From contig NZ_LT599032.1 of assembly GCF_900079725.1 (NCBI RefSeq), positions 3,480,856-3,544,855 on the forward strand: 64,000 nt of DNA, in the 5' to 3' direction. The notes under the pieces are model-generated. The model was not told the DNA's origin. It ran no database searches and was given only the letters and a program-made list of their open reading frames with translations. Below, piece by piece: positions 39,945-61,752 of the stretch. Numbering within the stretch: position 1 is the stretch's first letter; each line of letters starts with the position of its first letter. This DNA comes from an uncultured Dysgonomonas sp. GTDB lineage: Bacteria; Bacteroidota; Bacteroidia; Bacteroidales; Dysgonomonadaceae. Position numbers and translations under genes: made by a program.

Positions 39945-41726
39945 CTATTTTAAAGATTTCTTTACTACTTCAATTTCATCAGGGGCTTCAATTTCTGATT
40001 TGATTTTACCATCAGTCTGTTTTACATGTTTAATATTGATTGTTCCGTATGGTGTAGGAAAACTGCCTTCTGCCCATTCCAGATCTCCCAGATTAGGAGA
40101 TATTCTTACTTTTTTACAGCCTGGCTCCAGAGGTTCTACCCCTAACACATAACGACTAAGCCATGCCGTAGGACCTGAAGCCCACCCGTGACAAAAACTA
40201 TGACGGTAACCCGAATAGCAGTACCCTCCATAGGAAGCATGCACATCAGTTTTTCCGGCAGGAACTACTTCATCGATACGGGCGGCATTTTCCATCCATT
40301 TTATATCGAAATCTTCCCAGAATGTTGTAGCTCCCAAATCTAACATAGCCCCCCAGTATTCACGGATATTATTCAAAGCCCCGGTAAAATCATTTGCACT
40401 TGCTCTGGCATTGAGCATATAGTATCCGTAGAAAGTAGACATTTTATGTACGCCGTTTTGAGACAATATATCTGCATTGGCTTTTTGAGCAGGTATCAAT
40501 CCCGACAGTGCTAATAGTGCAGCTGCCTGTTTGGATTGGGTAAGCTCCGGCATGTGTTTTTTTAACTTTTTCAGGGAGGATTGGCAAAGCCTTACTGTTT
40601 CTTCATCTTTCAGAATTTTACATATTTCTTCTCCGGCCTCAAATGCCATAATCATCATAGACTGCAATCCTGCATGTATTGCTTCCGGGTCTTCACTTGA
40701 AGGCCAGTCGAGGAAACGAGTACCATCCAAAATCTCTTTTCCGTTTACATCTATTTTTTCGCTCAAGAGTTTTAATAATTGTGCTATATAAGCTTCTTGT
40801 TCGGAAAGATATTTTATATCTCCATGATAACGATACCAGTCGCGATGAATTATAATCCACCACATTGAATATGAACTGATGCCATTCATCCAGTTTGGAA
40901 GCGGGGTAAGATCGCGAGCCAGGTCGAGGCTCTTGGGTACAACCTCATTATACCCGAACACCGAATTTATTGTCATCACTTCAGGGTGAAGGTCTCCTAC
41001 CCATACCAGACGGTCGCGTTTTATTGCGTCCCATAGATAGTCTTGCATATTCAGATGTACAGTGTATGCCCCTGTGAGCCATATTTGGTTCAGACGATCG
41101 TCGTTGCATCTGAAAGAGCCCTGATAGGAGATGTCCCTGTAAGAAAATGCTGCACTTAATTCCTTTATTTCGAGGACTACACCCGGATCAACAACGTCGA
41201 TGCGAACGAAGCGGAATCCTGAATCGCCAACGATCAATTTTCCCAACCAGGGTAGTGTAACAATAAAATCGCGCATTGCATGATCGTTGGTTGCCCCACC
41301 TAGTTCTCCTATATTACTCATTGTCTCCGATACCGATTCACCAAAACGAATACGCACCCTGCCTGCCGGATTTTTATTACTCATAGAAGTAATAATTTCT
41401 ATCCCTCCCTGAATTTCACGGCCGAAATCAAGTATTATACCTCCTTTGTTGTTCTCATCGCTTTTCAATCGTAAGTAATTTCCCGCATTCAGATCAGCCT
41501 GTCCAGTTCCCTGTTTGAGAATAGCTCCGGAATTCAACACATAGGCTTCGCTGTTGTTGTCAGATGTCCAGACTACACGTGTTGGGGTCAGGTATTTGTA
41601 TACCAATGCTGTTGACCTTGCCTTTGTGTCCGCAGCTTGTTGAAATGGCAAGGGTAGTTCTTGCCCTATTATGTTTCCGCTGAATATAAATACAATACTG
41701 AATAATAGATTCCTTATTAATTGCAT
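39945..41726 (-). CDS. GH78-like alpha-L-rhamnosidase, short form
   Basis: A 593-residue secreted protein (signal peptide ending GNIIGQ) with a small beta domain and an (alpha/alpha)6 barrel of the GH78 type. The catalytic-site stretch D-x4-D-x6-D is present as Asp233, Asp238 and Asp245 in WDAIKRDRLVWVGD. In characterised GH78 enzymes the middle position is a Glu, so this enzyme has a conservative change there. The catalytic-base Glu is in TTFWEDFD. A C-terminal beta-sandwich (LGDLEWAEGSFPTPYG) follows. It lacks the N-terminal beta domains of the larger neighbour, which ends 5 bases upstream, so the two probably act together on rhamnose-containing glycans. Confidence 0.85.
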   Translation of the reverse strand: MQLIRNLLFSIVFIFSGNIIGQELPLPFQQAADTKARSTALVYKYLTPTRVVWTSDNNSEAYVLNSGAILKQGTGQADLNAGNYLRLKSDENNKGGIILDFGREIQGGIEIITSMSNKNPAGRVRIRFGESVSETMSNIGELGGATNDHAMRDFIVTLPWLGKLIVGDSGFRFVRIDVVDPGVVLEIKELSAAFSYRDISYQGSFRCNDDRLNQIWLTGAYTVHLNMQDYLWDAIKRDRLVWVGDLHPEVMTINSVFGYNEVVPKSLDLARDLTPLPNWMNGISSYSMWWIIIHRDWYRYHGDIKYLSEQEAYIAQLLKLLSEKIDVNGKEILDGTRFLDWPSSEDPEAIHAGLQSMMIMAFEAGEEICKILKDEETVRLCQSSLKKLKKHMPELTQSKQAAALLALSGLIPAQKANADILSQNGVHKMSTFYGYYMLNARASANDFTGALNNIREYWGAMLDLGATTFWEDFDIKWMENAARIDEVVPAGKTDVHASYGGYCYSGYRHSFCHGWASGPTAWLSRYVLGVEPLEPGCKKVRISPNLGDLEWAEGSFPTPYGTINIKHVKQTDGKIKSEIEAPDEIEVVKKSLK

Positions 41727-41731
41727 CTTCT

Positions 41732-44464
41732 TTAGTTTTTAATTACATAATTGCCTGAAGGAACTTCCAATATGGTATATTCTCCCACTACATCCACAAT
41801 TTTTGAATATCCCGATCCCTCATTAATTTTTGATGAATCTTTCTCAGGGAAATAAACGAATGCTTTACTGTTGACCGGAACAGTTACCCGTAAGCTAAAA
41901 TGTCCGTTTTCTCTTTTCCATGCCGATTCGATTTTTCCTACCGGTGAATCGAAAGAGGCATTAGCCCTATTCATCTGTGATTCTTCTAATAATGGAGGGC
42001 GTATTATAAAACTTTTAAACCCGACATCTTCCGGATTTCTGCGTATACCTGCAATTCCATCAATATACCATGCACCCGGGAAAAGGTACGAACTATGCAA
42101 TAAAGAATGGCCCGGCAAATCTTTTTCCCACATCTCCCATATCGTGGTGGCATCATTAGCTTTCATATACCCCCAGCTAGGATAAGCTGTCTGAGAAGTC
42201 ATGGAGTATATCAGATCATCACGTCCTTCTTCTCTAAGCAATTTAAAAAGAAGAGCTCCTCCCGTTATCCCTGCATGAATATGCCCCTTGCGGACATTCA
42301 GAATTTCGTGTTCCAAACGTTTCATCACCTTCTCTCTCACTTCGGCAGGAGGTACATCTGCAAGTAAAGCTGCAGCCATATAGCTCATTGAACCATTTGC
42401 ATATATATTATTTGCCCGGTCAAAATAGGCTGCATGAATGATACGGCTGGAAGCTCCAGCTTGTTTTTCCCACTGCTCCGCGTCTTGATATTTTCCTAAA
42501 ACACGCGCTATTTTAGCCGCAGTGCGAAGATTGAATACACGGTAACAATTATTGAAACAAACAGTCTCAGGCTTATCATTATTCATCCCTTCCGCAGTAG
42601 CATTGGGCCATAACCAATCACCCAAATAATCCCATGTACCTCCAAAACGTTTCAATAAATTACATTCAGTATGGGTATCCAGAAATGCCAACCATTTCTT
42701 CATCATTTCAAAATTCTGCTCCAGTATGCGCACATCTCCTTCATGCTGATATACGAACCAGGGAAGGATTATGCAAATGCCACCCCATGACGGCCCTCCG
42801 CCACCTTCATTTGTCGGTGCTGTATGTGGCAATATACCACCACCTACATATTTCCCGTTCATTGATTCCCAACCTTGTGCATCGCGCCAGTCTTCAAGCC
42901 ATTTTGTGTAGAAGGAACCCAGTTGATAATTAAACAAGCCTGTCTCTGATGTCGCATGGGCGTCTCCTCCGTACCCTAAACGTTCACGTTGAGGGCAATC
43001 AACAATATATCCGCCAATAGATAGGTTTTCGAATGTCCATAAAACGCGGTTATATATCCAGTTCTGCAATTCGTCGGAACATTCAAATGTCGTGGCACGT
43101 TTGTAATTGGTGCGTACCAGCCAACCTTTTATATCAGAAAGTTGCGGTTTATCTTTTAACCCCCGGATTGTAATCCAACGACCTGAGCTATAATTAAATC
43201 TGTTACGAAACACTCCTTTACCCGCAGCACCTATTATATAAGCATTTCGGATACCGTATGTCATTTCATCCTGTTGCCGTTCCGAAAATATAAAATCAAT
43301 GCGATCATTTTTATTCCCCTTCACTTTTATCTCTGTCCATCCTGCAAAGTTCACTCCCATATCTATGCGGAATCCGCCATCCGGAAGTTCTTCTATTGCC
43401 ACAGGTTTTATCTCATCAAGTACACGATTCCCTTCGGTATTCTGGGCAGACAATGTCAAGTGGGGAGTATATGTTATGGCACTTCTCCATTTGGAGTCAT
43501 CAAAAGATGGTAAATTCCAATCGGGAATCTCCTTATTTGCATCCCATATTTCGCCTCCCATATGATGAGGTTTCCATATGCCTAACAATTTGTTTGGACT
43601 GGGATGCATTTTCCATGAAGCATCTGTTTGTATACGAAGAGATTCATTTCCTGAACGGATATCAGCTTGCCCGATTACCATTGGAGTCTGCGGCTTATCA
43701 GATGTTATATAGGGAGTATGTAATACCCAGCCCGTACCAAGCCATAACGCAATTGTGTTCTTTCCTTTCTTTAGTTTATCTGCTATATTGTATGTCACAT
43801 AGCGAGCCCGGGTGGTATGATTGCTTACTACAGGAGCAAGAACTTCGTTTCCTATTTTTTCTCCATTAACATATAATTCGTGATAGCCCACTGAGGCAAT
43901 AAACATTACTGCCCGGTCAGGGCTTCTTTCTAATTGAAACGTTTTCCTAAACCATGGATCCGAGATATTACAGTCCTTCAATTCCGGATTAAATATCTCA
44001 TCAGACCCAATCCATTGGGCTGTCCAATCAGATACATCGAATAGTCCTGTTGTCCAATCAGCCGGCTTGCTCCATCCCGATTCTTTCCCTGATGCATCTT
44101 TTACATTTACTTTCCAATAATACGTCTTATCAGACTGCAAAGGCTTCCCTTTATAAACTATTAGTTGAGTATGATCACTATCTATCCAGCCTGTATCCCA
44201 CATACTTCCCGTATGTTTATTCAGGTCTTTCAAATTTTGCGATACTAAAATCCTGTATGCTGTCTGTTTTTGGCCAAAAGAATTAGGCTTTCGGGCTGTT
44301 AAAATCCAGCTAAAACGAGGTTCCTTTTCCTGAAGTCCCAACGGATTATCCAGATATTCGCATTGGGTATTTTTTATATCTATACCCTGCGCAAGGGTAT
44401 AGGGGCTTTGTAAGAGAAAGAAAATCAATAATATGAGGATTGAATTAATCTTAGTATTTTTCAT
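41732..44464 (-). CDS. GH78 alpha-L-rhamnosidase
   Basis: A 910-residue secreted inverting glycoside hydrolase that removes terminal alpha-L-rhamnose. The ATG at 44464 gives MKNTKINSILILLIFFLLQS with cleavage after TLAQ; a longer start would overlap the previous gene. Domains are N-terminal beta-sandwiches (FN3-like, then KTFQLERSPDRAVMFIASVG...LYVNGEKIG), a central beta domain, the (alpha/alpha)6 barrel and a C-terminal beta-sandwich. The three acidic residues of the GH78 catalytic motif are all present: Asp489, Glu494 and Asp501 in VDCPQRERLGYGGD; the base Glu is in TTIWEMWEKD. It follows the lipoprotein gene by 20 bases in the PUL operon. Confidence 0.95.
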   Translation of the reverse strand: MKNTKINSILILLIFFLLQSPYTLAQGIDIKNTQCEYLDNPLGLQEKEPRFSWILTARKPNSFGQKQTAYRILVSQNLKDLNKHTGSMWDTGWIDSDHTQLIVYKGKPLQSDKTYYWKVNVKDASGKESGWSKPADWTTGLFDVSDWTAQWIGSDEIFNPELKDCNISDPWFRKTFQLERSPDRAVMFIASVGYHELYVNGEKIGNEVLAPVVSNHTTRARYVTYNIADKLKKGKNTIALWLGTGWVLHTPYITSDKPQTPMVIGQADIRSGNESLRIQTDASWKMHPSPNKLLGIWKPHHMGGEIWDANKEIPDWNLPSFDDSKWRSAITYTPHLTLSAQNTEGNRVLDEIKPVAIEELPDGGFRIDMGVNFAGWTEIKVKGNKNDRIDFIFSERQQDEMTYGIRNAYIIGAAGKGVFRNRFNYSSGRWITIRGLKDKPQLSDIKGWLVRTNYKRATTFECSDELQNWIYNRVLWTFENLSIGGYIVDCPQRERLGYGGDAHATSETGLFNYQLGSFYTKWLEDWRDAQGWESMNGKYVGGGILPHTAPTNEGGGGPSWGGICIILPWFVYQHEGDVRILEQNFEMMKKWLAFLDTHTECNLLKRFGGTWDYLGDWLWPNATAEGMNNDKPETVCFNNCYRVFNLRTAAKIARVLGKYQDAEQWEKQAGASSRIIHAAYFDRANNIYANGSMSYMAAALLADVPPAEVREKVMKRLEHEILNVRKGHIHAGITGGALLFKLLREEGRDDLIYSMTSQTAYPSWGYMKANDATTIWEMWEKDLPGHSLLHSSYLFPGAWYIDGIAGIRRNPEDVGFKSFIIRPPLLEESQMNRANASFDSPVGKIESAWKRENGHFSLRVTVPVNSKAFVYFPEKDSSKINEGSGYSKIVDVVGEYTILEVPSGNYVIKN

Positions 44465-44484
44465 TTGATTATTTTTTTTGATTG

Positions 44485-46164
44485 TTATCGAAGCGAACAA
44501 TCGATTGTTATTTGATTATTCTGTGGTAAAATTCTAAAGACAAAAAGGTCTTTTTCCTTGGGAACTATAATTTTTCCAACAGCACAGCCCAATTCGTATT
44601 CAAAGTTTTCTATTTCAGCCTTTATCCCACTCTCATTTATGATATGAAAAGGTAATTGCATCCCATCTGCGACTGTAAACTCCAGTGCCCATGGACGATT
44701 GGTAGCAGAGGCACTTAATTCTATATTTTTCTCAGTAAATGTTAACTTATACTCCGAAACGGTTCCCTCTTCCAACCATTTGACTATCATCGTATTCGTG
44801 TCTGGTGTTATGATCGATGGTATACCACATAATATCTCCGCAGAAGTTCCGTCTTCCAATATCCTTACCAAACGAATCCCGGCTCTTTCTTTGTCTGTAC
44901 TCCAAAGAAACCCGTCTAATATTGGCAACGTGGTATATGTGCAATGCGGCGTTTCCTCAACCTGCCCTAAATATTTTGATGCCATCCTCTCATCAAATAA
45001 ATGTAAATCGCGAAATCGAAAATGTGTGTCTTTCCACAAAATATTAGCCCGGTAAAACCTACTGTTATACCAAACGGTTTTATGCCCTTCATTCTTGAAG
45101 TCTGACAAGGAAGATGTTGCTGTAGGAGGAGTTACCGGATATTTGCTTTTGAACCATTCAGCACTTTCCGATAATGTTTCTATTCGTATAAGGCCTTGTT
45201 TTTGCAATGAATCAAGTATAGGGATCTGAATTTCGGACAATCCCTTTCTCATTTTATCCCAGGTAAACGAGTTCTCCTGTCCTACCTGAGCATAAGTAAA
45301 GTTAAGGGCAGGATCTTCAAATGTAGATTTGAAGAAATACCTTACCCAGTTAAGGTTACTACCCCCTAAGCCCTCACCTTGAAAAACCGGCTCCAATGTT
45401 ACAACCGATTGCTCCCTTGTTCCTAAGCTTGCATCATATTGATATATAGGATCGCTGCCCAACATTCTGAATATAGGAACCGGTATCTGGTTCTCTGCGT
45501 TCTGTGCCGGCATATATGCATTATTCCGGCTGGGATAATATGCATTATTCCAATAACCACCCCACATAGAATAACCATCTGTACCCACTTGGTCTTTCAT
45601 ATTGCACGAGGCTTTGACCTGATATTTCTCATGCATATAGCTTAGAGTATGAGCATCTATAAACCAGCATCCGACTGACGCCGGGTATTTATTGAAGATA
45701 GATTTAAACTTGGTCATATACACATCAACTAGTTTTTCCCTTTCTGCAGGTGTATACCCTATCGAAAACCCGACATTTGCATGCCAGTCCCAAGAGTAAC
45801 GCCCTCTCCATTTCAGCCCGGCGGCTTCAACTTGTGGCTGTGTTATTTCCCACCATCCTCCAATCTCCGATGATCCGTTCAGGCTATCTTTCATCAGCGT
45901 CTGATACACGGGGTCTATCAGAGCATCATATTGCAATAAGAATGTGCCGGGCAGATCATACTTTCTCAGCATCAAAATTTGTTGATAAACTGTTTCGAAA
46001 AGTACCTTATCGGTAATCTCATCAATTCGCGGCTCGGTCTGGCGAATAAAATTTATGATATTTACGATATGGACAGGCTCTTTTTCTGCAACTCTCTCCG
46101 TATGAGAACAGGAAAGAATAAAGAATGCAGAAAACAAGAGAAAAGTACAAAATATAGATTTCAT
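44485..46164 (-). CDS. Secreted lipoprotein, possible deacetylase- or hydrolase-like barrel, PUL-associated
   Basis: A 559-residue lipoprotein (lipobox ILSCSHTE), taken from the ATG at 46164 because a longer frame begins with TTG inside a repeat. The N-terminal half has (beta/alpha)-barrel features seen in polysaccharide-deacetylase/GH57-like proteins: VNIINFIR, GTFLLQYDALID, GGWWEITQP, SIGYTPAEREKLVDVYMTKF, SVGCWFIDAHTLSYM. The C-terminal half is beta-rich. I do not recognise a named family and cannot point to a certain catalytic residue. It is the gene between the GH71/GH99-like and GH78 enzymes, so it likely acts on the same glycan. Confidence 0.6.
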   Translation of the reverse strand: MKSIFCTFLLFSAFFILSCSHTERVAEKEPVHIVNIINFIRQTEPRIDEITDKVLFETVYQQILMLRKYDLPGTFLLQYDALIDPVYQTLMKDSLNGSSEIGGWWEITQPQVEAAGLKWRGRYSWDWHANVGFSIGYTPAEREKLVDVYMTKFKSIFNKYPASVGCWFIDAHTLSYMHEKYQVKASCNMKDQVGTDGYSMWGGYWNNAYYPSRNNAYMPAQNAENQIPVPIFRMLGSDPIYQYDASLGTREQSVVTLEPVFQGEGLGGSNLNWVRYFFKSTFEDPALNFTYAQVGQENSFTWDKMRKGLSEIQIPILDSLQKQGLIRIETLSESAEWFKSKYPVTPPTATSSLSDFKNEGHKTVWYNSRFYRANILWKDTHFRFRDLHLFDERMASKYLGQVEETPHCTYTTLPILDGFLWSTDKERAGIRLVRILEDGTSAEILCGIPSIITPDTNTMIVKWLEEGTVSEYKLTFTEKNIELSASATNRPWALEFTVADGMQLPFHIINESGIKAEIENFEYELGCAVGKIIVPKEKDLFVFRILPQNNQITIDCSLR

Positions 46165-46189
46165 TTTATAATAATATTTATTGTTGTAT

Positions 46190-46313
46190 TGTTGATGTAG
46201 GGGCAAATTGAATTACTAATCGCCGATGCGTGGGCAAGGCAAAATCAGTAGAGCAAATAATATTTCGCCCGTTAATTATATCAGGCGTAAAGTTTCACGC
46301 CCCTACATCAATA
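46190..46313. repeat. MITE-like element with GTAGGGGC ends
   Basis: TTGATGTAGGGGC (46192-46204) and GCCCCTACATCAA (46299-46311) are perfect 13-base inverted ends, and the interior has further GCCCGTT/GGCGT-type pairing. It is about 120 bases long, has no gene, and sits in the 314-base gap between two PUL genes. GTAGGGGC-type inverted repeats are widespread in bacterial genomes. Confidence 0.6.
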
Positions 46314-46324
46314 CTGTATTTAAC

Positions 46325-46350
46325 AAAAAAGTAACAAAAGTAACACCTTT
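46325..46350. repeat. Short AAAAAGTAACAAAAGTAACACCTTTT-type repeat
   Basis: Reverse complement of the motif at 3168-3190 (GTGTTACTTTTGTTACCTTTT). Lies next to the MITE-like element. It may be a hairpin or an operator; function unknown. Confidence 0.45.
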
Positions 46351-46478
46351 TCGAAGTTTTTTATATTGTAACTGTTTCATCCGATAATTCGCTTATTATC
46401 TGTACTGTATAGATAAAATTACATAAATAAAGTTACAACTATTTTTAACTGCTGGTTCACATAACTAAAGAGAAGTAT

Positions 46479-48509
46479 TTATTGCGTCCAAATATACCTG
46501 TAATTAAAGCGCCGGTTCGGTGCTGTATCTCCATTCAGACAGAGGGATATCGGATCTTCCAGATTGGCAGGATTATCGCTCCATTTAAAATCGAATGTGA
46601 ATTTCCTCCCCTCTAAATTAAGTGCTTTTCGGGCAACCGATATTTCCAGTTTGTTATCTCTTACCTGATAATCCAGATTACAGACCTTAACCCACTGCCC
46701 GTTATCATACTTCATGAGCGTTGTGGTGTTGCTATCAAGTATATCTTTGTTGATAATATAATCATAACCATACCATCCTGTCGAAGAATCATTATCGGCA
46801 TCAATAAAAAGTAACATCCAGTTATGCCCGGTGTAATCAGTTAAAGCATTATCCGTTTCGGCATAAAAATATATGTTCTTCTTATCTACTGATACTTTAC
46901 TTGTAATAATATCATTGCGCCCTGAATTGTTTGTATAATGTAATCCCCGGTAACCTTGATGATCGCGGTGAGCAACATCGCCTCTTGTATCACGGAATTC
47001 TGTAACTACAGATTCCCAATCATTAAATCTTCCATCAATCTTGATTTTACAGAAACCTTTATTTTCGGGAATAGGATTAACTCCCTTATAACGACGGATA
47101 TTTTGAGCCATCTGCATATAAAAGTTATCTGTATATCCACCTTTCATTGGTTGAATTGTTCTATTAAATTCGGAATTGTATTGGTCAACAAATAGATAAT
47201 TGCTTTTACGTCCCATAAAATCGCAACTCTCGCGGGGAAATTTTCCGGCAGTCCATTCATTCCAGTCATTGATATAAATAAACTGAGGATCAGCAGTCAG
47301 AGTCTCATCCCATCTCTCCTGAAAATAAATTCCATAACCGGTTGGATTCTCCACTGTTTTTCCCAGCCATGGGACATATGTAGAAACAGGCATATCGTAT
47401 TCATCCAATTTGGGTTGGCCATGATTTCTCGACCATGATTTTCCTATCATTGTGCAAGCATGCTGACCTGCGGTAACAGCCGCTTGTTCTCTCACTCCAT
47501 TATGTAAAGAAACAAGGTCCTTCGGGTCCATTTTTCGTACCATTGCATCCTGTTCGTCCCCCAGTTCATAACCGAAACTCCAATTATCCTCAGTACCAAC
47601 AAAACGCTGATCTCCCCATTCATAACGCCCCCACCACATCGTCCGCTTTGTAAAGAAATCTTTCACTTCTTTTGTATAGTCTTTATAAAATTCTTCACAG
47701 TAATCAGGATCTTTGTAATGAGGATGCCCAGGATCGGTCTTAGCTTTAGGATCATAATTGAAATTCCTGCTTGGAGGAGTTAAGCCATTGGCATCGAATT
47801 CAGGGCGTCCATTATATAGTAGTAAAGGCCGGTCATCCCAGTAAAACCATAGATCTTTATATTTCCCGGTTTTATATATTTTTTCATACAGATCCTGAAC
47901 TACCTCAAATACAGGTCCGTTGTATGACCAAAAGCAAATTTCAGGAACTTTATTCCCCTCAGCTTTCATTTTCTGCATGAGAGGGAATAATATCTCCCAT
48001 TCATCCCAGTACCTTTGAGCATTTGTAACATCCATTATCAATACATCTACTCCTGCATCTGATAACATGGATATATCTTTTCTCATGACATATTCATCTT
48101 TACTCAAAAAATATCCCATCTCCGGTTCACCCGAATGGAACGAAAACTGGGAGGCCGCCCATAGAGGATGATTTACGTCGAGTCTTGCCGATGGGTCTTG
48201 CTCCAGAATCTTTGTCACATCTGCCATATAAGGAGGTGTTCCTGCAGCTAAATCTGCTGTATGCCACGTAATATAAAACATTCCGACCACACGCCTATGG
48301 TCTTTTTTTACCGGACCGACCTCTTTACTATCCGGCATTTTTCGCCCCAATGCATCTGTAGCAACCCATGTATCGGGATACAAATCCCTATAGTATTTTT
48401 TGCTTATTGAATCTTTTGGTACTGGTAAATAATCTTCGTTTGCCCGAATGTTTTGTGATATCAAGCAGATGCACATCAATATAAAAACAAGTATATTTCT
48501 TTTTTTCAT
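46479..48509 (-). CDS. GH71/GH99-like secreted glycosidase with C-terminal carbohydrate-binding-type domain
   Basis: A 676-residue secreted protein (signal peptide to about 23). Residues about 70-480 form a TIM-barrel like the GH71/GH99-like (WbsX) group: VVGMFYITWH, ISMLSDAGVDVLIMDVTNA, ICFWSYNG, DLWFYWDDRPLLLYN and the YINDWNEWTAGKF stretch, which matches the family's WNEW block. The last 180 residues (IDGRFNDWESVVTEFRDTRGD ... WMLLFIDADNDSSTGWYGYD) are a CBM9/DOMON-type beta-sandwich. GH99 enzymes cleave alpha-mannan-type bonds, but WbsX-like members act on other glycans, so activity is uncertain. It follows susD by 248 bases, which contain repeats. Confidence 0.8.
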   Translation of the reverse strand: MKKRNILVFILMCICLISQNIRANEDYLPVPKDSISKKYYRDLYPDTWVATDALGRKMPDSKEVGPVKKDHRRVVGMFYITWHTADLAAGTPPYMADVTKILEQDPSARLDVNHPLWAASQFSFHSGEPEMGYFLSKDEYVMRKDISMLSDAGVDVLIMDVTNAQRYWDEWEILFPLMQKMKAEGNKVPEICFWSYNGPVFEVVQDLYEKIYKTGKYKDLWFYWDDRPLLLYNGRPEFDANGLTPPSRNFNYDPKAKTDPGHPHYKDPDYCEEFYKDYTKEVKDFFTKRTMWWGRYEWGDQRFVGTEDNWSFGYELGDEQDAMVRKMDPKDLVSLHNGVREQAAVTAGQHACTMIGKSWSRNHGQPKLDEYDMPVSTYVPWLGKTVENPTGYGIYFQERWDETLTADPQFIYINDWNEWTAGKFPRESCDFMGRKSNYLFVDQYNSEFNRTIQPMKGGYTDNFYMQMAQNIRRYKGVNPIPENKGFCKIKIDGRFNDWESVVTEFRDTRGDVAHRDHQGYRGLHYTNNSGRNDIITSKVSVDKKNIYFYAETDNALTDYTGHNWMLLFIDADNDSSTGWYGYDYIINKDILDSNTTTLMKYDNGQWVKVCNLDYQVRDNKLEISVARKALNLEGRKFTFDFKWSDNPANLEDPISLCLNGDTAPNRRFNYRYIWTQ

Positions 48510-53900: not shown

Positions 53901-54073
53901 GACATTACCGCATTCTTGCCAAATTCAGACACGACAGATACTCCCCGAAAGAGATTCCCATATTCATCTTTTACGATGCCACGAACCTCTATATTCTGAA
54001 AATTTTCCTGTGCTGCTATATCTCCTATAAGAAGAAATAACAGTACTATTTGAATCATTTTTTTATATTTCAT
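50984..54073 (-). CDS. SusC/RagA-family TonB-dependent transporter (second of the PUL)
   Basis: A 1029-residue outer-membrane glycan importer. Signal peptide to about 21, then a carboxypeptidase-regulatory-like domain (VRGIVKDEYGNLFRGVSVVS, about 28-95), a plug with LAGRLSGL, LIIIDGFMIP, IESISILKDASLLALYGITG, and the barrel. The last residue is Phe (LGLSVQF). It has no STN domain, so it should not signal to FecR itself. The plug reads ALYGITGASGAIIVTTKRG where most SusC have AxYGxRGANGVIxVTTKRG. It pairs with the following SusD. Confidence 0.95.
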   Translation of the reverse strand: MKYKKMIQIVLLFLLIGDIAAQENFQNIEVRGIVKDEYGNLFRGVSVVSEFGKNAVMSDESGSFLIYITDKSRHITLSKDYYLPEKVEVKDNDNLEITLKRDIYNTNEIVYDGFNSVSKKMMAGSASVVTGYELNKSPVSVLSSTLAGRLSGLTTRENSSEWARTSNSLWIRGASLNGAHTPLIIIDGFMIPTEAQACMDFITPAEIESISILKDASLLALYGITGASGAIIVTTKRGKPGELKVDLRIDGSLQNVTVKPYRVNSGVYSQLRNQAAYNDNPAGGQFQMFTEEQVGKFASGEDPIHYPSHDWYSEFMKNFAFMQRVGLNLSGGSDKARFFSNVNIMNQNTNFKISEKEKFNPTPNYFWANMRTNIDVNIGQHLKAFMNIAGNLKREKTTEGNMTNVYQGMFDLPPTLYSNLTPEERDPQTGEIIREGGKVMITPSIGNNVYGRINRQGFTQHTITNIYSNFGLELDMSFLAQGLKATGTVGFLSNNRKSLATSRNYERWIRVTNTFSDWDELKFEKKGTDEDTPLSHSKGEDDYHNINYKGALNYTRSFGKHTVSAYAYSMYLELVRAENLPFKYVYSGLQATYDYDDRYVLTIGTGYSGSDNYAPKNRFHTTPAIAGAWIASSEAFMKDIKWLSLLKLKASYGRNGNDDTGASRYPYLNNIQGVDELFISNPSYSPEMVKKQNYGIEVGLLNGLHLSFDIYRHNLDNMYMNVIPDIPSYHGNTGIFPNINAGGMRNKGYELEIAYTKNIMKDFSINMDGFLAYNKNKFTHVIETIRSDDYFHKERVTGYPTGQTWGYLVDYSNGNGLFNTEQELNDYLSHTQYSFNKPRLGDIKYQDLNNDGIIDEKDHAPLGYGAIPNYYFGLTVGAKYKNFDFSALFQGVENYKTSSAGSIGINEGALSDGLYSSRHLQAWTKERYDAGETISHPALTLKNTSANTQTSEYFMVDRSYVRLKNLEIGYTLPMKMSRAIKARNIRVSLSAQNLITWDHLSDYDFGPEAGDYNHLPAFRVYNLGLSVQF

Positions 54074-54196: not shown

Positions 54197-56143
54197 TTAC
54201 CATCCCGGATTTTGCCAATCGTCTCCGGTAAGACTATACATTCTTGCTGCTTCAGCCATTGGTATCGGGGCTTTCAGATATTTGTTAGTATAACACAAAC
54301 GTTCTGATGAGCGCACAGTCTTTCTTTTATATGTATAATGAGAAAATGAACCATCTTTTTCGTGCCTCGTTATTTCCATAGCTGTAAGCCATTTATCTGT
54401 ATCCTTGAGGTCTCCTTCAGGTTTTTGCCATCTGCGGACATCAAAAAAACGATGAGGCTCCAGGGCCAGTTCAATACGCCTTTCATGCCTTATTCTCCGA
54501 ATTAATTCTTCTTTATTATTTATCAAACCGGCAGGCAATGGAGGCATATTCACCCTGTCTCTTATTTCGTTTACCAATTGGTAAGCTTCTTGCAAATGAC
54601 CTGCCTCTGCTGCGGTTTCGGCGCAATTCAGTATAATTTCACCAAGTCGGTACAGTTTTTCGGCAGGCCCTTCGATAGGTTGGTTTTCTCCGGCATTAGG
54701 ATGAAGATATTTACGATTATAGTACCCTGTCCGCGTTCTTGTGCGGGAGGTTTCATGAATTCCAGTCATTGGTTCCCCTACCCATGTGGAAATAATACGA
54801 GTGCGATATACAGGCCCGTTTCCATTGGGGTCTAAATTGTAATTATCCTTACATTCCGGTGTTTCTGTATGATTCCATTTGCAAGTTCTTTTTGACCCAT
54901 TATAATGGATCGATGAGTAAAAACGGGGATCTCGGTTTGCATACGGATTCTCAGGATTGTACATCGTATTATTCGTATTATAGTTAGGCTGAAGATGTTT
55001 TTCATCCAGGTAAGGTTTTTCCAGTTTCAGAACAGTTTCTCCATCCGTCGTTTCATAGGCATCTACCAATTCCTGAGTAGGCACAGAACCGGCTTTCCTA
55101 TCAGCTTGGCAGCCAATGCCATCATACTCAAACGCCTTACCTGTAGTAGCCCAACTCGAGTATATGGTTTCTTTATCTACCGGATTTGTCGTATATCCAT
55201 AATCCTGAGTAAAATATTCATTCATCAGCGCCGAATACTTGTTCGGTAAATGTGCCTGATTCTGAGGGTTATCGTCATCGTTCGCATATATATCGGGATA
55301 ATTTATTTTCTTATATAATTCATATCCGTTATCCCTCAAGTTTTTGAGTGCCGTTTTATTTATCTGATATGCTTTTTCCCATAAGTCTTGCCCGTCGTTA
55401 TATAATGGACTGGCTGCGTACAACATTATCCGTGACTTGATGGCCTCTGCTGTGGCTTTGGTTAGCCGGGCTTTTTCGGTCGGGCTGGTTATGCGCCAAG
55501 GCAGTTCTGCCGTGTTAAGAGCAAAATCACAGTCTTCCAAGATAAAATCTACAACTTCGTGATAAGATGGTTTCTGTACTTGCGTAAAGTCATCTTCATA
55601 ATTGAAAGGTTCTCTCATTATAGGTAAGCCTGTGCCAAACCATTTCAATAATTCTGCATAATAGTATGCCCTAATCAGGTGAGCTTCAGCTCTCCATCTA
55701 TTTCTTTCGGCCTCAGTTTTCACATTTGCACTACCTATTCGCTGAATGAATACACTACAGTAGTAAATACATTCATAAAAACGCGAATACTGCTGATTAT
55801 CCCTGAAGTCATATTTATGACTTGTCATAGGATAGCTTTCGGCACTTGCATCACCATTTGCCATAGATGCCGAAACACCGTAATGATATGCTATATCATC
55901 ATTATCCCAGGCGTCGTCGCAAGTAGATACCGGTCCTCTGGATTGCCACGGCCAGTTCATCCCTCCTATTGGAATATATAAATAACAGCTATTCAGATAA
56001 GCGCTCGTCTTGAAGTGATCGGAGAATATTTCATCCAGGCTTATTTTCCCATCCGGAGCCTGATCCAATGTATCATTGCATGATATCTGAAGGAAGAGAA
56101 CTACGGTGATTATAACCAATATTGATTTATTTAAAAGTTTCAT
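54197..56143 (-). CDS. SusD/RagB-family glycan-binding lipoprotein (first of the PUL)
   Basis: A 648-residue lipoprotein with lipobox LQISC. SusD features are SLDEIFSDHFKTSAYLNSCY, RWRAEAHLIRAYYYAELLKWFG, YRLGEIILNCAETAAEAG, LVNEIRDRVNMPPLP and RIELALEPHRFFDVRRW. It binds glycan at the surface and feeds the SusC upstream. The gene ends in GDDWQNPGW, close to the NWQNPGWDY end of the second SusD, so the pair probably arose by duplication. It is separated from susC1 by a 102-base gap holding repeat copy B. Confidence 0.95.
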   Translation of the reverse strand: MKLLNKSILVIITVVLFLQISCNDTLDQAPDGKISLDEIFSDHFKTSAYLNSCYLYIPIGGMNWPWQSRGPVSTCDDAWDNDDIAYHYGVSASMANGDASAESYPMTSHKYDFRDNQQYSRFYECIYYCSVFIQRIGSANVKTEAERNRWRAEAHLIRAYYYAELLKWFGTGLPIMREPFNYEDDFTQVQKPSYHEVVDFILEDCDFALNTAELPWRITSPTEKARLTKATAEAIKSRIMLYAASPLYNDGQDLWEKAYQINKTALKNLRDNGYELYKKINYPDIYANDDDNPQNQAHLPNKYSALMNEYFTQDYGYTTNPVDKETIYSSWATTGKAFEYDGIGCQADRKAGSVPTQELVDAYETTDGETVLKLEKPYLDEKHLQPNYNTNNTMYNPENPYANRDPRFYSSIHYNGSKRTCKWNHTETPECKDNYNLDPNGNGPVYRTRIISTWVGEPMTGIHETSRTRTRTGYYNRKYLHPNAGENQPIEGPAEKLYRLGEIILNCAETAAEAGHLQEAYQLVNEIRDRVNMPPLPAGLINNKEELIRRIRHERRIELALEPHRFFDVRRWQKPEGDLKDTDKWLTAMEITRHEKDGSFSHYTYKRKTVRSSERLCYTNKYLKAPIPMAEAARMYSLTGDDWQNPGW

Positions 56144-56151
56144 ATCTTATC

Positions 56152-56250
56152 AATTTAAGGTCTCTGACCTATTTATTACTTTTGTATCTGCAACAGGAAT
56201 AGCCGGTTATGGTTAAACAATGTTGCATTAAATACTTCCTTTTACCTAAA
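56152..56250. repeat. Dispersed intergenic repeat, copy B (overlaps end of susC1)
   Basis: AATTTAAGGTCTCTGACCTA, then TTATTACTTTTGTATC, AATAGCCGGTTA and TTGCATTAAATACTTCCTTTT. It is the most complete copy and links the palindrome-bearing copies (A and C) with copy D. It fills the spacer between susC1 and susD1. Confidence 0.6.
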
Positions 56251-59200
56251 ATGTAACATTAAGTCCGAAGCCCATCAATTTCGTTATAGGGTATCTTGTC
56301 GGATTTGTTTTCTCCGGATCCTGATGTTCCAGATTCAGCTTATCCCAGAGAAATAAATTTTGTCCTGTCACATAAATCCTAAGATTGTTTATTCCCACTT
56401 TTTTTAATGATCCTTTTGGAAGTGTATAGCCAAATTCAAGGTTCTTAAGGCGGATAAACGACCTGTTCTGTAAAAAGAATTCATTCGGTACATGGTTTGC
56501 ATTCGGTGTTGTACTCAGAGTAGGATAAGTAATCTTCTCTCCATTATTGAAACGTTCCTGTGTCCATGCATTTTTATGATAGGTATAATAAGAACCCTCG
56601 CCATCATATTCATAAATACCAAGACCATCCCAAATAGTAGAGTATTTTCCTATACCGGAAAAGAAAACAGATAAGTCGAATCCTTTATAACTTAGATTAA
56701 TTCCTAAGCCGTAAGTAAGTCCCGGAATACTGGAGTCACCTATTGGTGCATAATCCTTATCATCTATATTATTATCTCCATTCATATCTATATATTTCAA
56801 ATCGCCCGGACGGGGAGATGCTCCAACATTATACGACAAACCACTATTGTCTATCTCATCCTGAGATGTCCAAAATCCCTTTCCCGGAGAATCCCAATCT
56901 ACCTTAAGCCCCCATGACTGCCCGATAGGGTAGCCGGTTTGCCTGTATTTGTAGGCATAAGCTTCGCCCAATCCAGCTTCGTCTATAAAGGTTATCGTAT
57001 TCTTGTTTGTAGCAATATTCCCTTGCAACCTGATACGGAAATCCGGGGTTATTTGCTTATTATAAGTCAGCTCCAGCTCCAGGCCTTTATTCTTTATTAC
57101 ACCCATATTCACTTTAGGTAATACACCTAATGGCAAGCCTTGAAATATAGGAACAGTGCCTCTGGTTATTAGTATCTTGTCTCTTTTCTCATGGAAATAA
57201 TCAAAAGATCCATTCAAATCTTTAAATAATTGAAAATCCATACCAATATTAAATTTATCCGCGACCTCCCATTGTAGTTTAGAATTACCGAGCAATACCA
57301 TATTTACTTTCTGCCCAAGTCCCAATCCTTCTATATTCGTTTCCCGGCCTCCTAGTATAATATTATCCTGATATAGGAAACGCGAGCCTCCCAGTTTGTC
57401 ATTTCCTACCCGTCCATATGACCCCCTGAACTTCAGATATGTCAAGTATTTTTCATCGCTTAAGAAACTTTCGTTTGTAACAACCCATCCGGCTGAAAAT
57501 GCAGGAAATGTGCCATAGCGGTTTGATGGGGCAAACTGTTCCGAACCATTGTATCCTATATTGAATTCGGCAAAATAGCGGCTTTTATAATTATATGTTG
57601 CACGGGCAGCAAACCCCAAAACATTATATGGTATCTCAGCACCTTCACTTTCCCAATAGTCTCGTTGGACATTGAATAAACCTCCTACGCTGTGATCTCC
57701 AAAGCGCCTGTTATAATTTATAGAAGCCTGAGCATTGATCTGATATCTGGTCGACTTCCATCTGGACAATGCCATGGCTCTTTCATAGGAGTCTTTTTTA
57801 GAGAACATAATACGATCGTTCTCATAATCAGCTACTGCTGTATATTGGATTTCGTCAACTTGGCCCAACAATGAATTTGTAGGATATGAGTCAAAGGAGA
57901 CCATTCCTTTTGCAACCAACCCCTTGGTTATTATTTCACTCAGATCCATTTCCAGTTCAAATGAGGTATTCAGATTTGTGCGTGTGTAGACATAATATCC
58001 TTTCCTGTTTATATCTGCAAATCCAGACCGATCTCCTACCGATGGATGAATAACGGCATCGCCGGGCACATCAGGGTTAACACCACTAATTGTAGTAGGT
58101 CCCATCATCGTAGGATTGAGCCGGAATGTTTCTTGCATCATACCTCGCAATAAAGTTTCGGTATTGGGATATGGATAAAAATTAGGAGAGTTTTGTTTTT
58201 CTATATAGGTTCCTATATTAAATCGGGCTTTCAACCAACTCGACATTTTGTAATCCATATTTGCCCTGAAACTCCATCTATCAAGTTTCAATGACGGGTC
58301 GTATCCCAATTTCGACTTGGGCTCTGTATTAAAATGCCCTCCCTGTTTAAGATACCCGATATTAATAAAATACAGCACGTTATCTGTACCTCCCTGTGCA
58401 TTTGCATTTATACGTGTTTCCGGAGCCGTATCTTTAAAATATTCGCCATAATAATAATGATTCGGATACAGATAATTCCGATAAGCAGCCTGTTGTGCAT
58501 AGTCAGGATCATTAGAGTCTAGTCCGAACAAGGGGTTTTCAAACTTCGCTCTTATCTCGGGAGAAAAGGCTGCAGGCTGTCCATCGTTGGTTAATGCCTC
58601 GTTTCTCATATCTATATATTCCAAATTGGATATTCGTGCAGGCTTACGAGTAAATGAGGTATATACCTGTGAAGCAGAGACTGACAATTGGGCTTTGCCA
58701 GCCACACCCCTTTTCGTAGTGACAATGATCACTCCATTAGCCCCTCTCACTCCAAATACAGCTGTTGCGGAAGCATCTTTCAAAACACTCACGCTTTCAA
58801 CTTCGGTTACATCAAGGGTACGAAGATCGCGTGGAACTCCGTCAACTAAGATTAATGGGGATGAACCGTTGACTGTAGCTGCCCCACGCAGATAAATCTC
58901 AGCATCATCCAGACCAGGCATTCCGCCTCCCGATTGGGTAGAACTTAAACCTGTGATACGCCCCTGTAATGCGTTACCAAAGCTTGTTACCGAGCTTTTG
59001 GTCAGATCTTCGGAGGTTACAGTAGATATAGCGCCTGTAATAGATACCTTTGTCTGGGTTCCGTAAGCCACCGTAACAACTACATCATCAAGAGACGATA
59101 TATCTTCTTCTAAGGAAAGTATAATTTCAGTTTTTCCTTCGATACTTATTCTCCGGGTCTTAAAGCCAATATAAGAGAATACGAGTTCAGTGTCGGGCTT

Positions 59201-59743
59201 ACCGGCATAAATAACAAAACGCCCGTCTTCATCAGTAAATGTTCCGTTCTGCGTATTATTTTCCTTAATAGTCACTCCAATCAAGGGTTCTTTCTGCTTA
59301 TTTGTAACTCTTCCGACAACTTTTGTCTTCGATTGTTGCTCTTCTTCCGAAGCAGCAGACTTTGTTTTTTCTTCTTTTTTTCTGTAGACAGTAATCTGCC
59401 TTCCTATAACTGTATAAGACAGTTGCCTATCTTTCATGGCTATTTCTAAGATCTCGAAAATGTTCCCATTTTCGAGATTAACCGAAATTTTTTCAGATAA
59501 TTCTGGTCTTACATTGTCAACTATAAGAAAAACATAATCGCTCTTGTTTTCTATTTCCGAGAAAAGCCGAGCAAGTGTCACATTCTTTAAGTCGACAGAT
59601 AACTTCACTTGTTGAGAGTATGAGTCATTTGCATACAATGAAAACACACAAGTGAAAAATAAAAATAGCGTGATTTTCATAATTTTTACAATTCGATCGC
59701 AATTTAATTGGGTAATTCGATCAAAGACATTACTTTGTTTCAT
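56246..59743 (-). CDS. SusC/RagA TonB-dependent transporter with STN signalling domain
   Basis: A 1165-residue outer-membrane transporter. After the signal segment (MKITLFLFFTCVFSLYANDSYSQ, about 22-45) comes an STN domain (VKLSVDLKNVTLARLFSEIE, about 46-120), then a carboxypeptidase-regulatory-like domain (VVGRVTNKQKEPLIGVTIKE, about 140-215), a plug with VVVTVAYGTQTK, LILVDGVPR, VESVSVLKDASATAVFGVRG and ANGVIIVTTKRG, and the beta-barrel with a terminal Phe (FGLNVTF). STN domains of FecA-type proteins touch FecR in the periplasm, so this protein probably both imports glycan and reports its presence to the FecR/sigma pair upstream. Confidence 0.96.
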   Translation of the reverse strand: MKQSNVFDRITQLNCDRIVKIMKITLFLFFTCVFSLYANDSYSQQVKLSVDLKNVTLARLFSEIENKSDYVFLIVDNVRPELSEKISVNLENGNIFEILEIAMKDRQLSYTVIGRQITVYRKKEEKTKSAASEEEQQSKTKVVGRVTNKQKEPLIGVTIKENNTQNGTFTDEDGRFVIYAGKPDTELVFSYIGFKTRRISIEGKTEIILSLEEDISSLDDVVVTVAYGTQTKVSITGAISTVTSEDLTKSSVTSFGNALQGRITGLSSTQSGGGMPGLDDAEIYLRGAATVNGSSPLILVDGVPRDLRTLDVTEVESVSVLKDASATAVFGVRGANGVIIVTTKRGVAGKAQLSVSASQVYTSFTRKPARISNLEYIDMRNEALTNDGQPAAFSPEIRAKFENPLFGLDSNDPDYAQQAAYRNYLYPNHYYYGEYFKDTAPETRINANAQGGTDNVLYFINIGYLKQGGHFNTEPKSKLGYDPSLKLDRWSFRANMDYKMSSWLKARFNIGTYIEKQNSPNFYPYPNTETLLRGMMQETFRLNPTMMGPTTISGVNPDVPGDAVIHPSVGDRSGFADINRKGYYVYTRTNLNTSFELEMDLSEIITKGLVAKGMVSFDSYPTNSLLGQVDEIQYTAVADYENDRIMFSKKDSYERAMALSRWKSTRYQINAQASINYNRRFGDHSVGGLFNVQRDYWESEGAEIPYNVLGFAARATYNYKSRYFAEFNIGYNGSEQFAPSNRYGTFPAFSAGWVVTNESFLSDEKYLTYLKFRGSYGRVGNDKLGGSRFLYQDNIILGGRETNIEGLGLGQKVNMVLLGNSKLQWEVADKFNIGMDFQLFKDLNGSFDYFHEKRDKILITRGTVPIFQGLPLGVLPKVNMGVIKNKGLELELTYNKQITPDFRIRLQGNIATNKNTITFIDEAGLGEAYAYKYRQTGYPIGQSWGLKVDWDSPGKGFWTSQDEIDNSGLSYNVGASPRPGDLKYIDMNGDNNIDDKDYAPIGDSSIPGLTYGLGINLSYKGFDLSVFFSGIGKYSTIWDGLGIYEYDGEGSYYTYHKNAWTQERFNNGEKITYPTLSTTPNANHVPNEFFLQNRSFIRLKNLEFGYTLPKGSLKKVGINNLRIYVTGQNLFLWDKLNLEHQDPEKTNPTRYPITKLMGFGLNVTF

Positions 59744-59799
59744 AAATTTGTAAATGATTTTGGTTTACAATATTCTTTGAATGTGTAAATTAGACTTAT

Positions 59800-59830
59800 A
59801 ATCGGATGGTACTGGACCTACCGTCCGATT
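59800..59830. terminator. Hairpin between fecR and susC1
   Basis: AATCGGATGGTA and TACCGTCCGATT pair over 12 bases with one G-T, around a 7-base loop. The long T tract follows only on the plus strand; on the minus strand (direction of the genes) it is followed by ATTATAAG. It could act as a processing or attenuation site that separates regulatory from structural genes. Confidence 0.5.
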
Positions 59831-59882
59831 ATTTTTTTCATCGTAGTTAGTTTTTCATTATTAGATATTCTTCATAGGCACT

Positions 59883-61067
59883 TTATTTTATATTATTTAT
59901 ATGAATTATATTCTCATCTCTGCTATACGTAATTGGGACTAATACAGAGATAGCAGTCATTACACTATCTATATTCTGATCTAAAATAAACTTTCCGGTA
60001 CAAGTTGTTTCGGATAAATCCAATGACCCAATATTGGTGAACTTTATGTTATAATATTTCCCTATTTTATTCAAAATATCAGCTAAAGAAGCATTCTTGA
60101 GGTTCAATATTCCATCTTTCCAACTGATATATTCTGAGGCATTTACATGATACTTGTCTATATTCCCCGTTTCCAGAACAATCATATCATTGGGTTTCAT
60201 CTCTAAGGATTTGTGACCGGGAACATCTACTTTGACAATCCCGTCAACAAGGACAACCGATTTGACAGGCTCGTCGTCATACGCCGAAATATTAAATTTA
60301 GTTCCAACCACTTGTACATCAAACTGTGATGTATGCACATAGAAAGGCTTCTTCGGATTTTTTGCAACATCAATATATATTTCGCCCCGTACGCTTATAT
60401 CTCTTGTCTTCCCTTCAAATGTAGATGGGAATTCCAATTCTGTTCCCGAATTCAGCCAGACTTTGGTTCCGTCTGCCAAAATTATAGAAGAACGCTTTCC
60501 GTATGGTACAACAATTTTATTTATAGCTTTAGGCAGTAGGGATATATCATCAATGCTATGTCCATCTTTATCAAGAATTGTGGCTTTACCGCTCTCATCT
60601 AATTTTATTTCAACATCTTCTGATAATGCCCTTGATACACTAGCATTAATAAACTGAATATCTTTGCTGTCCTGGGCTTCACCTATAATTGATGTTTCAA
60701 TAATGGGATTTATATTATGCTTTTTATTGTAAATAAATAGGCTTGACGTAATCAATATAAGAAGGCACGCAGCAGAGGCAGCATAATATTGCAATCTTTT
60801 TATTTTGTGTTTTCGTAGTACAGTATCTTTTCTAATATTTCTTAATAGTGCTTCACTTTGTATATCTGATAGAATATAATTATTAAACCGTACAGACCTA
60901 AAGACTTCTACGGCCTTAGCTAAAGCATCTTCGTCTTCCGGTTTTTTTATTTTGTAATCATCCCAGAAATGGTTCAATTCTTCAGTTTGCAGGACTTGCC
61001 ACTTTATGAACTTATCATCATTCAGAAAATCTTTATAGGTAGATTTACGATTATTTAGGTTTGTCAT
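59883..61067 (-). CDS. FecR-family anti-sigma factor
   Basis: A 394-residue inner-membrane protein. A cytoplasmic N-terminal part (1-88) precedes one membrane segment (about 90-108); the periplasmic part holds the FecR domain (VPYGKRSSIILADGTKVWLN, ELEFPSTFEGKTRDISVRGE, PFYVHTSQFDVQVVGTKFNI) and a C-terminal DUF4974-type domain (LKNASLADILNKIGKYYNI), which resembles STN. It would hold the sigma factor inactive and receive the signal from SusC1. It lies 94 bases after the sigma gene. Confidence 0.95.
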   Translation of the reverse strand: MTNLNNRKSTYKDFLNDDKFIKWQVLQTEELNHFWDDYKIKKPEDEDALAKAVEVFRSVRFNNYILSDIQSEALLRNIRKDTVLRKHKIKRLQYYAASAACLLILITSSLFIYNKKHNINPIIETSIIGEAQDSKDIQFINASVSRALSEDVEIKLDESGKATILDKDGHSIDDISLLPKAINKIVVPYGKRSSIILADGTKVWLNSGTELEFPSTFEGKTRDISVRGEIYIDVAKNPKKPFYVHTSQFDVQVVGTKFNISAYDDEPVKSVVLVDGIVKVDVPGHKSLEMKPNDMIVLETGNIDKYHVNASEYISWKDGILNLKNASLADILNKIGKYYNIKFTNIGSLDLSETTCTGKFILDQNIDSVMTAISVLVPITYSRDENIIHINNIK

Positions 61068-61161
61068 TTATGATATAATTTAAGGCATTATACACAGTTT
61101 ATATCATTATGACGATTGGATGGAAGAATTGTCTACACGTTTTGTGATTTTTTTTGAAATT

Positions 61162-61752
61162 CTACAAACTTTTGAGAAAAGATGCAGATAAAAGGATGAA
61201 AAAAATCTTTTTCTCATCTCCATTTAAGTTCCGCAATCTTTCCATTGCTCTGAATACGAGCATTCTCGCCGACTTAGGTGTCATATTTAAAAGAAGTGCG
61301 ATTTCGTCATAATTCATTTCCTGTATATAACGCAAGTAAATGCCCTCTTTTTGCCGATCGGTTAAACAGCTCATCAAAGATTCGACCTTCTCTGTTATTA
61401 TTTTCTTATCTTCTTCATCAATAATAGGATCGACGACAGATACTTCAATATCGAACGGAATTGAAGTTATGGATACGTTTTCTATAAACTTATTTTTCTT
61501 GTATATATCAAATAACCGATGCTTTAGACTTTTAAAAAGATAATATTTTACATTTTCTATCTTGATTATATTCTCTTTGCTAAGATTATATAGCTTGCAA
61601 AATACATCGTGTATAGCATCCATACATATATCTTCGGCAAACCCAAGACTTATCCCGTATCTATACAAGCTATTTACATAGCTCTGATATAAAAGGCCGG
61701 AGTCCGGATCGGTTCCATCAATAAATTTTTTAAGCGAAGATATGTCTGACAT
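61162..61752 (-). CDS. ECF RNA polymerase sigma factor (FecI-like)
   Basis: A 196-residue sigma-70 family protein of the ECF type found with FecR in Bacteroidota. Region 2 is in LLYQSYVNSLYRYGISLGFA to SLKHRLFDIYKK, and region 4 is CLTDRQKEGIYLRYIQEM, NYDEIALLLNMTPKSARMLV with the helix-turn-helix. Regions 1 and 3 are absent. It is the first gene of the PUL order and would direct transcription of the susCD genes. Confidence 0.95.
   Translation of the reverse strand: MSDISSLKKFIDGTDPDSGLLYQSYVNSLYRYGISLGFAEDICMDAIHDVFCKLYNLSKENIIKIENVKYYLFKSLKHRLFDIYKKNKFIENVSITSIPFDIEVSVVDPIIDEEDKKIITEKVESLMSCLTDRQKEGIYLRYIQEMNYDEIALLLNMTPKSARMLVFRAMERLRNLNGDEKKIFFILLSASFLKSL

Follow-up and report, generated by a model that had tools for sequence, protein, structure and literature searches.

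A rhamnose-glycan utilization locus as probable cargo of a 32.2-kb integrative mobilizable element in a tRNA-Pro gene of Dysgonomonas

Polysaccharide utilization loci (PULs) on mobile elements are already known, and so are the integrative mobilizable elements of Bacteroides. The available text of a mobile-element survey of gut Bacteroidetes (ImmeDB, PMC6907783) counts 47 SusC- and SusD-containing loci carried by mobile elements. In the accessible parts of a second source (PMC5704250), most integrative mobilizable elements of Bacteroidetes measure 5-15 kb, the canonical elements include some with MobV relaxases, such as Tn5520 of Bacteroides fragilis, and the relaxases of NBU1 and NBU2 are MobP. 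Here we analyzed a stretch of 64,000 nucleotides ("the window", G000:C1:3480856-3544855) from the 5.2-Mb single contig of an uncultured Dysgonomonas sp. (the source genome, G000), in which a prediction from the letters alone had placed a ten-gene rhamnosidase locus. We consider it probable that this locus is a rhamnose-glycan PUL and the cargo of an integrative mobilizable element of 32.2 kb that occupies tRNA-Pro(tgg). Like the loci in the available text of the ImmeDB survey (PMC6907783), it is a complete SusCD locus on a mobile element, but here the carrier, the tRNA-Pro site and the enzyme set could be defined base by base. Like NBU1, NBU2, Tn4555 and Tn5520, as far as the second source describes them in those parts, the element has an integrase, its own relaxase and no conjugation genes among those scanned, whereas its 32.2 kb exceed the 5-15 kb given there (PMC5704250), a size that is due to its 22-kb cargo.

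The extent given in the original prediction, 39945-61752, held for the locus but stopped short of the element, so that the mobile carriage was missed. The natural unit runs from 38586 past the end of the window, and the stretch to the right of the window (L175) holds the remainder, including attR. Protein families were assigned with Pfam and NCBIfam and tRNAs with ARAGORN and Rfam. The features that define the element are the following.

38556..38631, plus strand: tRNA-Pro (anticodon tgg), the insertion site, pointing at the locus (ARAGORN; Rfam tRNA)
38586..38631, plus strand: attL, a 46-bp repeat equal to the last 46 bases of tRNA-Pro (exact repeat)
38683..38704, plus strand: 22-bp repeat near the left end, with a second copy at L175:6640-6661 near the right end
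38761..39450, minus strand: ISL3-type transposase remnant between attL and the locus (Pfam DDE_Tnp_ISL3, E 1.1e-43)
62819..64000, continuing to L175:243, minus strand: Mob/Pre-type relaxase, an open frame of 474 codons across the window edge
L175:5378-6688, at the far end of the element: tyrosine integrase of 436 amino acids, 97 bp from attR
G000:C1:3551640-3551685 (L175:6785-6830), outside the window: attR, the second 46-bp copy (exact repeat)

The two att copies are perfect over 46 bp, lie 32,199 bp apart and lose all identity immediately on either side, and the locus sits entirely between them. Judged from these ends and the genes they enclose, an integrative mobilizable element of 32,199 bp sits in tRNA-Pro(tgg) and carries the locus as cargo; both ends, the integrase at one of them, the relaxase frame, the ten-gene cargo and the empty site of a relative (see below) can all be read directly from the DNA. 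Between relaxase and integrase the element carries a toprim primase, a DUF5906 protein, two helix-turn-helix proteins and an AlbA-type protein. Because no conjugation gene was present among the seven genes that were scanned from the locus to attR (frames of at least 80 amino acids), the element is by gene content classed as mobilizable rather than conjugative, and with an integrase, end repeats, a relaxase of its own and no conjugation pore genes among those scanned it has what sets integrative mobilizable elements apart. The Mob/Pre relaxase type is one that we take to be MobV. The region of the 22-bp repeat, which is also seen as a 32-base match at 94% between the left and right ends, is possibly an arm site of the integrase.

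For comparison between genomes we used 25 genomes of the genus, 101 of the family and 393 of the order. In one genome of the same genus (G010) the 70 bases past an intact tRNA-Pro match the G000 flank beyond attR in 66/69 aligned bases, while the other 22 rows of this comparison reached at most 46/66. By this alignment the G010 tRNA-Pro is the empty site: its flank matches the flank beyond attR, so everything in between was inserted.

The same tRNA appears to be in wider use. A 36-base core of the repeat is found in 20/25 genomes of the genus, with two copies in 4, and the left-end signature of the element recurs at 9/20 intact tRNA-Pro sites of the genus, G000 among them (loci L177-L200). Half-tRNA copies devoid of the tRNA 5' part are present in G000, G008, G015 and G019, and in G000, G008 and G019 this type of integrase lies within about 150 bp of the half copy; the G015 copy has no such integrase nearby, the best integrase match being 35%. 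G017 encodes an 81%-identical integrase about 17 kb from tRNA-Pro on the same contig with type I restriction genes in between as cargo, and a second exact repeat copy was not found there. An integrase of 75% identity is present in G014, which has no exact 36-base core, and relatives of 66-77% identity occur outside the genus as well. It seems from these comparisons that the tRNA-Pro site takes up a family of elements with exchangeable cargo.

The cargo consists of ten genes, all on the minus strand of 39945-61752 and in the order originally predicted: sigma, FecR, SusC1, SusD1, SusC2, SusD2, GH99-like, lipoprotein, GH78 and GH78 (GH, glycoside hydrolase family).

61162..61752, minus strand: sigma factor of the extracytoplasmic function (ECF) type (Pfam sigma-70 region 4, E 2e-11)
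59883..61067, minus strand: FecR-type anti-sigma factor (Pfam FecR, E 2.8e-16)
56246..59743, minus strand: SusC1, with an N-terminal extension that has a weak STN match (Pfam; TIGR04056)
54197..56143, minus strand: SusD1 (Pfam, E 7.5e-45)
50984..54073, minus strand: SusC2 (Pfam; TIGR04056)
48758..50962, minus strand: SusD2, with an insert of about 150 amino acids (Pfam, E 3.1e-44)
46479..48509, minus strand: GH99-like enzyme of 676 amino acids, without the second motif Glu of GH99 (profile match and alignment)
44485..46206, minus strand: lipoprotein of 573 amino acids, of a family without a name, with a predicted barrel and a beta-rich C-terminal part (predicted fold; lipobox by eye)
41732..44500, minus strand: GH78 alpha-L-rhamnosidase of 922 amino acids with the full domain set (Pfam, E 9e-75; PDB 6i60, E 2.8e-118)
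39945..41726, minus strand: GH78-type alpha-L-rhamnosidase of 593 amino acids (Pfam, E 4.4e-20; PDB 3cih, E 5.6e-48)

With two SusC-SusD pairs and two GH78 enzymes encoded by the same strand, the locus is a PUL by its gene content, and since G000 has 60 SusD matches genome-wide, with some genes scoring twice, a single SusCD locus is by itself ordinary in this genome. Both SusC proteins score above the TIGR04056 cut-off (853.6 and 652.4 bits). The original prediction had described an STN-type SusC under FecR/sigma control; the sigma and FecR assignments were borne out by Pfam, but the STN match of SusC1, although in the expected N-terminal place, reaches 21.6 bits against a cut-off of 28.4. SusC2 gave no STN match in the Pfam scan, in agreement with the predicted second SusCD pair without STN. 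The proposed single ECF/FecR switch stands as anatomy, with one sigma/FecR pair that comes first in the gene order, and control by this pair is a prediction from that arrangement. From the sigma gene to the lipoprotein gene the gaps range from 21 to 272 bp, and promoters inside the locus are possible because of the two longest ones, which precede the lipoprotein gene (272 bp) and the GH99-like gene (248 bp). The lipoprotein frame shares 16 bp with the first GH78 frame, and 5 bp separate the latter from the second GH78 frame. The insert in SusD2 (49328-49810) is shared by the SusD2 proteins of L073 and L075 but not by those of L074 and L082. It had no solved-structure match and no Pfam model above cut-off (DUF3601 at E 0.069 is chance level), and it may be an added binding domain. 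The presence of two SusCD pairs suggests that two sizes or kinds of fragment would be taken up.

The two GH78 assignments of the original prediction are well supported. Acidic motif residues in the six-hairpin catalytic domain have established roles in GH78, and both enzymes combine that domain (Pfam) with the motif stretches R-E-R-L/R-D-R-L with G-D and the later W-E stretch; signal peptides were recognized by eye on both. The Pfam scan matched no polysaccharide lyase, GH105 or GH28 among the ten proteins, as had been stated before, and the locus thus lacks the lyase, GH105 or GH28 by which a pectin rhamnogalacturonan locus is recognized.

A counterpart of the locus is found in G011 (G011:C228; L211, L073, L212), where sigma, FecR, SusC1, SusD1, SusC2, SusD2, GH99-like, GH78 and GH78 follow each other in the same order. 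The shared proteins are 62-89% identical to those of the G000 locus, which differs in having the lipoprotein gene. The G011 locus is followed by GH43, a frame of the GH127 family (37.5 bits, above cut-off, cut by the end of the stretch), a minus-strand gene, GH106, an FGGY kinase, RhaA, an iron alcohol dehydrogenase and RhaT. This neighbourhood, with GH106 and rhamnose catabolic genes, supports L-rhamnose as the predicted product. In G000 the rhaA orthologue, 95% identical to that of G011, lies about 117 kb from the locus; the surrounding 19.9 kb contain 16 frames, of which rhaB, rhaA and rhaT alone have a match in the G011 stretches. Between the two genomes the rha proteins are 81-95% and the locus proteins 62-89% identical, a comparison that does not decide on transfer.

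The 676-residue protein had been predicted to be a GH71/GH99-like enzyme. It has no Pfam match at E up to 5 (GH99 included) and no NCBIfam match at E 0.001, and single-sequence searches returned no meaningful solved chain for it or for the 573-residue lipoprotein. The GH99 part of the prediction holds at profile level only, where GH99 structures are hit at E 4e-7 by a profile built from 23 relatives; the match covers two stretches, and an N-E-W motif lies in one of them. These two stretches are shared with the GH99 endo-alpha-1,2-mannosidases (4ad1, 5lyr, 6zdc and others), in which the motif reads N-E-W-H-E-G and its second Glu is catalytic. In 15 orthologues of the G000 enzyme it reads N-E-W-T-A-G instead, and the Ala at the position of the second Glu is invariant in 23/23 aligned relatives, so that the two glutamates expected of a GH99 enzyme are not both present; the remote E-values and an extra C-terminal domain set the enzyme further apart. 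Because the second motif Glu is an Ala, the enzyme, though by its profile a relative of GH99, is predicted to be unable to use the same Glu pair. It is therefore quite improbable that it is a GH99-type alpha-mannosidase: the profile match and the conserved N-E-W would fit, but we rejected this reading on account of the missing second motif Glu, and the alpha-mannose links suggested in the original prediction are not supported.

Orthologues of the GH99-like enzyme (at least 64%) are present in 3/25 genus and 17/101 family genomes, own included and two of them partial, and at E 1e-150 they are found in 11/393 order genomes, again with the own genome included; viral contigs and plasmids gave no relative of the enzyme. 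Comparison of the profile with one WbsX protein covered 23 columns only, at a probability of 33%, and a structure prediction from 3 sequences was not usable (predicted local distance difference test, pLDDT, 39.5). In one genome (L252:2476-6576) a relative near GH106 is a fusion protein with CBM6, PA14 and a secretion tail, an architecture suggestive of action on a polymer outside the cell. Two to four copies of the family per locus, often together with SusCD2-type pairs, were seen in L079, L075 and L082, a possible sign that the same glycan contains several linkages.

The lipoprotein, listed as unassigned in the original prediction, indeed belongs to no Pfam or NCBIfam model: there was no Pfam match at E up to 5 (no DUF3863 either) and no NCBIfam match at E 0.001. 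Relatives occur in 15/101 family genomes, own included, and a contig scan confirmed 407/455 matched stretches as relatives, the best 80 of which were kept and carry titles from Bacteroidota, Verrucomicrobia, Planctomycetes and others. A structure model from 57 sequences (pLDDT 91.9) was compared with solved folds by Foldseek and by a Z-score structure comparison, in whose lists absence of a family does not exclude it. The nearest solved fold is 3lm3, a DUF3863/DUF3864 protein of Parabacteroides distasonis (Z 33.6, root-mean-square deviation 2.9 over 365 residues; Foldseek E 4.3e-14 at 13% sequence identity), followed from Z 19.5 by polysaccharide deacetylases, an allantoinase and GH57 enzymes. 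The link to DUF3863 is seen in the fold only, as profile comparison gave a probability of 7.8%. DUF3863 genes directly adjoin genes of the lipoprotein family in 9/79 and 5/16 loci. In all, 16 Asp/Glu are kept in at least 95% of the relatives and no His is so kept. For an assignment to GH57 or GH38, which would call for a catalytic Glu/Asp pair at corresponding places of the barrel, the comparison extended to the barrel class, which is the same. The lipoprotein is most likely a glycoside hydrolase.

The metal in carbohydrate esterase family 4 (CE4) is held by an Asp and two closely spaced His. A CE4 metal deacetylase was considered for the lipoprotein and rejected, as no His is invariant among the 57 sequences (52, 51 and 53 of them have H142, H186 and H402, respectively) and the spacing of these three is wrong. 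Nor did the counts support a strict tie between the lipoprotein family and rhamnosidases: GH78 or GH106 occurs in 26/80 named lipoprotein loci, many of them on short contigs (p 0.41), and in 8/16 family loci (p 0.08), compared with 4/20 control loci. The 54 direct same-strand neighbours of lipoprotein genes that matched no query were diverse, with no Pfam family in more than 4. In other genomes of the same genus the lipoprotein family was seen directly beside DUF3863 (L058, L065) or GH106 (L059).

The 14 loci with GH99-like orthologues, 5-20 kb each, were compared with 20 SusD-centred control stretches of G000 of 17-20 kb, 19/20 with a SusD match, and GH78 or GH106 was present in 12/14 against 4/20 (p 3e-4, a generous value given that the controls come from one genome and that the test loci are mutually related and the source of some of the queries). 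Seven further GH99-like loci lie outside this count, with GH106 or GH78 in L252, L253, L255 and L257 but not in L254, L256 and L258. Besides the limits of this count, two observations weigh against our interpretation. The G+C content of the locus (39.4%) is close to that of its surroundings (40.1%), so composition shows no foreign origin, and a version of the SusCD1-SusCD2-GH99-like part in G025 has no GH78 in the stretch read, so that the partnership with GH78 is not a constant one; beside that part, G025 also gave no match to sigma or FecR. The chromosome-like G+C content would suit a resident chromosomal locus, with the repeat, integrase and relaxase belonging to a smaller neighbouring element and the enclosure arising by chance or by later rearrangement, and so would the G011 version, which is at another place and not at tRNA-Pro, the G011 locus and the G011 tRNA-Pro being on different contigs. 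A resident locus is nonetheless very unlikely in our judgement, as the locus lies wholly between two exact repeat copies, the flank past attR matches the flank past the intact tRNA in G010, and the left-end signature next to attL recurs at 9/20 intact tRNA-Pro sites of the genus. We hold to the element as carrier, and the locus can probably pass between bacteria.

A rhamnose-containing target outside the standard pectin loci, as originally predicted, is supported by the two GH78 genes, by the 12/14 against 4/20 count and by the GH106 and rhamnose genes near the G011 version. Which glycan this would be is less certain. A plant gum or pectin side chain such as arabinogalactan protein or rhamnogalacturonan I, with the mobile version as a reduced copy that deals with rhamnose capping only, is a tentative candidate to which the GH43 and GH127-family genes after the G011 version and the GH127 or GH2 in other loci of the GH99-like family would point, but the ten genes contain no lyase, GH105 or GH28. 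Bacteroides arabinogalactan loci remove rhamnose with GH145, according to the available part of PMC8406133, and a GH145-type Pfam match was absent from our ten-protein scan, which had no dedicated GH145 model. We regard it as somewhat unlikely that the target is a rhamnose-rich polysaccharide of bacteria, be it O-antigen, cell-wall rhamnan or exopolysaccharide, on which the GH99-like enzyme would be the endo-acting partner; the lack of pectin enzymes in the ten genes, the fused relative with CBM6, PA14 and secretion tail that suits polymer work outside the cell, and the many loci in which the GH99-like family lies near GH106 or GH78 are consistent with it, but GH127 and GH43 near relatives fit plant glycans better. 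We offer, as a speculative proposal, that the GH99-like enzyme might represent a new glycosidase family with an acid unlike that of GH99, cutting inside rhamnose-rich chains beside GH78/GH106 exo-rhamnosidases, that the lipoprotein might represent a second new glycosidase family of the DUF3863 fold class, and that tRNA-Pro elements with exchangeable cargo might spread such kits among Dysgonomonas.

In the proposed mechanism the integrase would excise the element as a circle, the relaxase would nick this circle while a conjugative element elsewhere supplied the pore, and the circle would reinsert in tRNA-Pro of the recipient and restore the tRNA. Trios of this kind (SusC, FecR and sigma) are established sensing systems, and substrate bound at SusC1 would signal via the N-terminal extension to FecR, freeing the sigma factor and turning the locus on. 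The lipoprotein and the GH99-like enzyme would open the chain, the two SusCD pairs would import the fragments, and the two GH78 enzymes, the likely source of free rhamnose, would release L-rhamnose for degradation by the host's own rha genes about 117 kb away.

Within the open-licence literature that we searched, the tRNA-Pro carrier of this genus, the combination of enzymes and the two families that lack a model appear to be new. The locus makes the movement of an entire sugar-utilization locus on a small mobilizable element testable on a precisely defined example: the two ends are known, a relative shows the empty site, another genome has a counterpart at a different place, and related elements in other genomes use the same tRNA. 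It also brings forward two widespread enzyme families that have no model in Pfam or NCBIfam, of which one is accompanied by alpha-rhamnosidases in 12/14 loci examined, and an encoded diet that could probably move between bacteria.

Some smaller features of the element and its borders may be added. A short open frame at 62359-62617 resembles, by reading, the start of an IS4-type (DUF4372-like) transposase. Together with the ISL3-type remnant at 38761-39450, which is present in a single copy in G000, it brackets the locus inside the element, and the pair may be a mark of cargo capture. Between the sigma and relaxase genes, at 61860-62240, a broken N-acetyltransferase-like remnant was recognized by reading. 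Directly past attR, outside the element, lies an alpha-L-fucosidase gene with two F5/F8-type stretches (L175:7064-8926).

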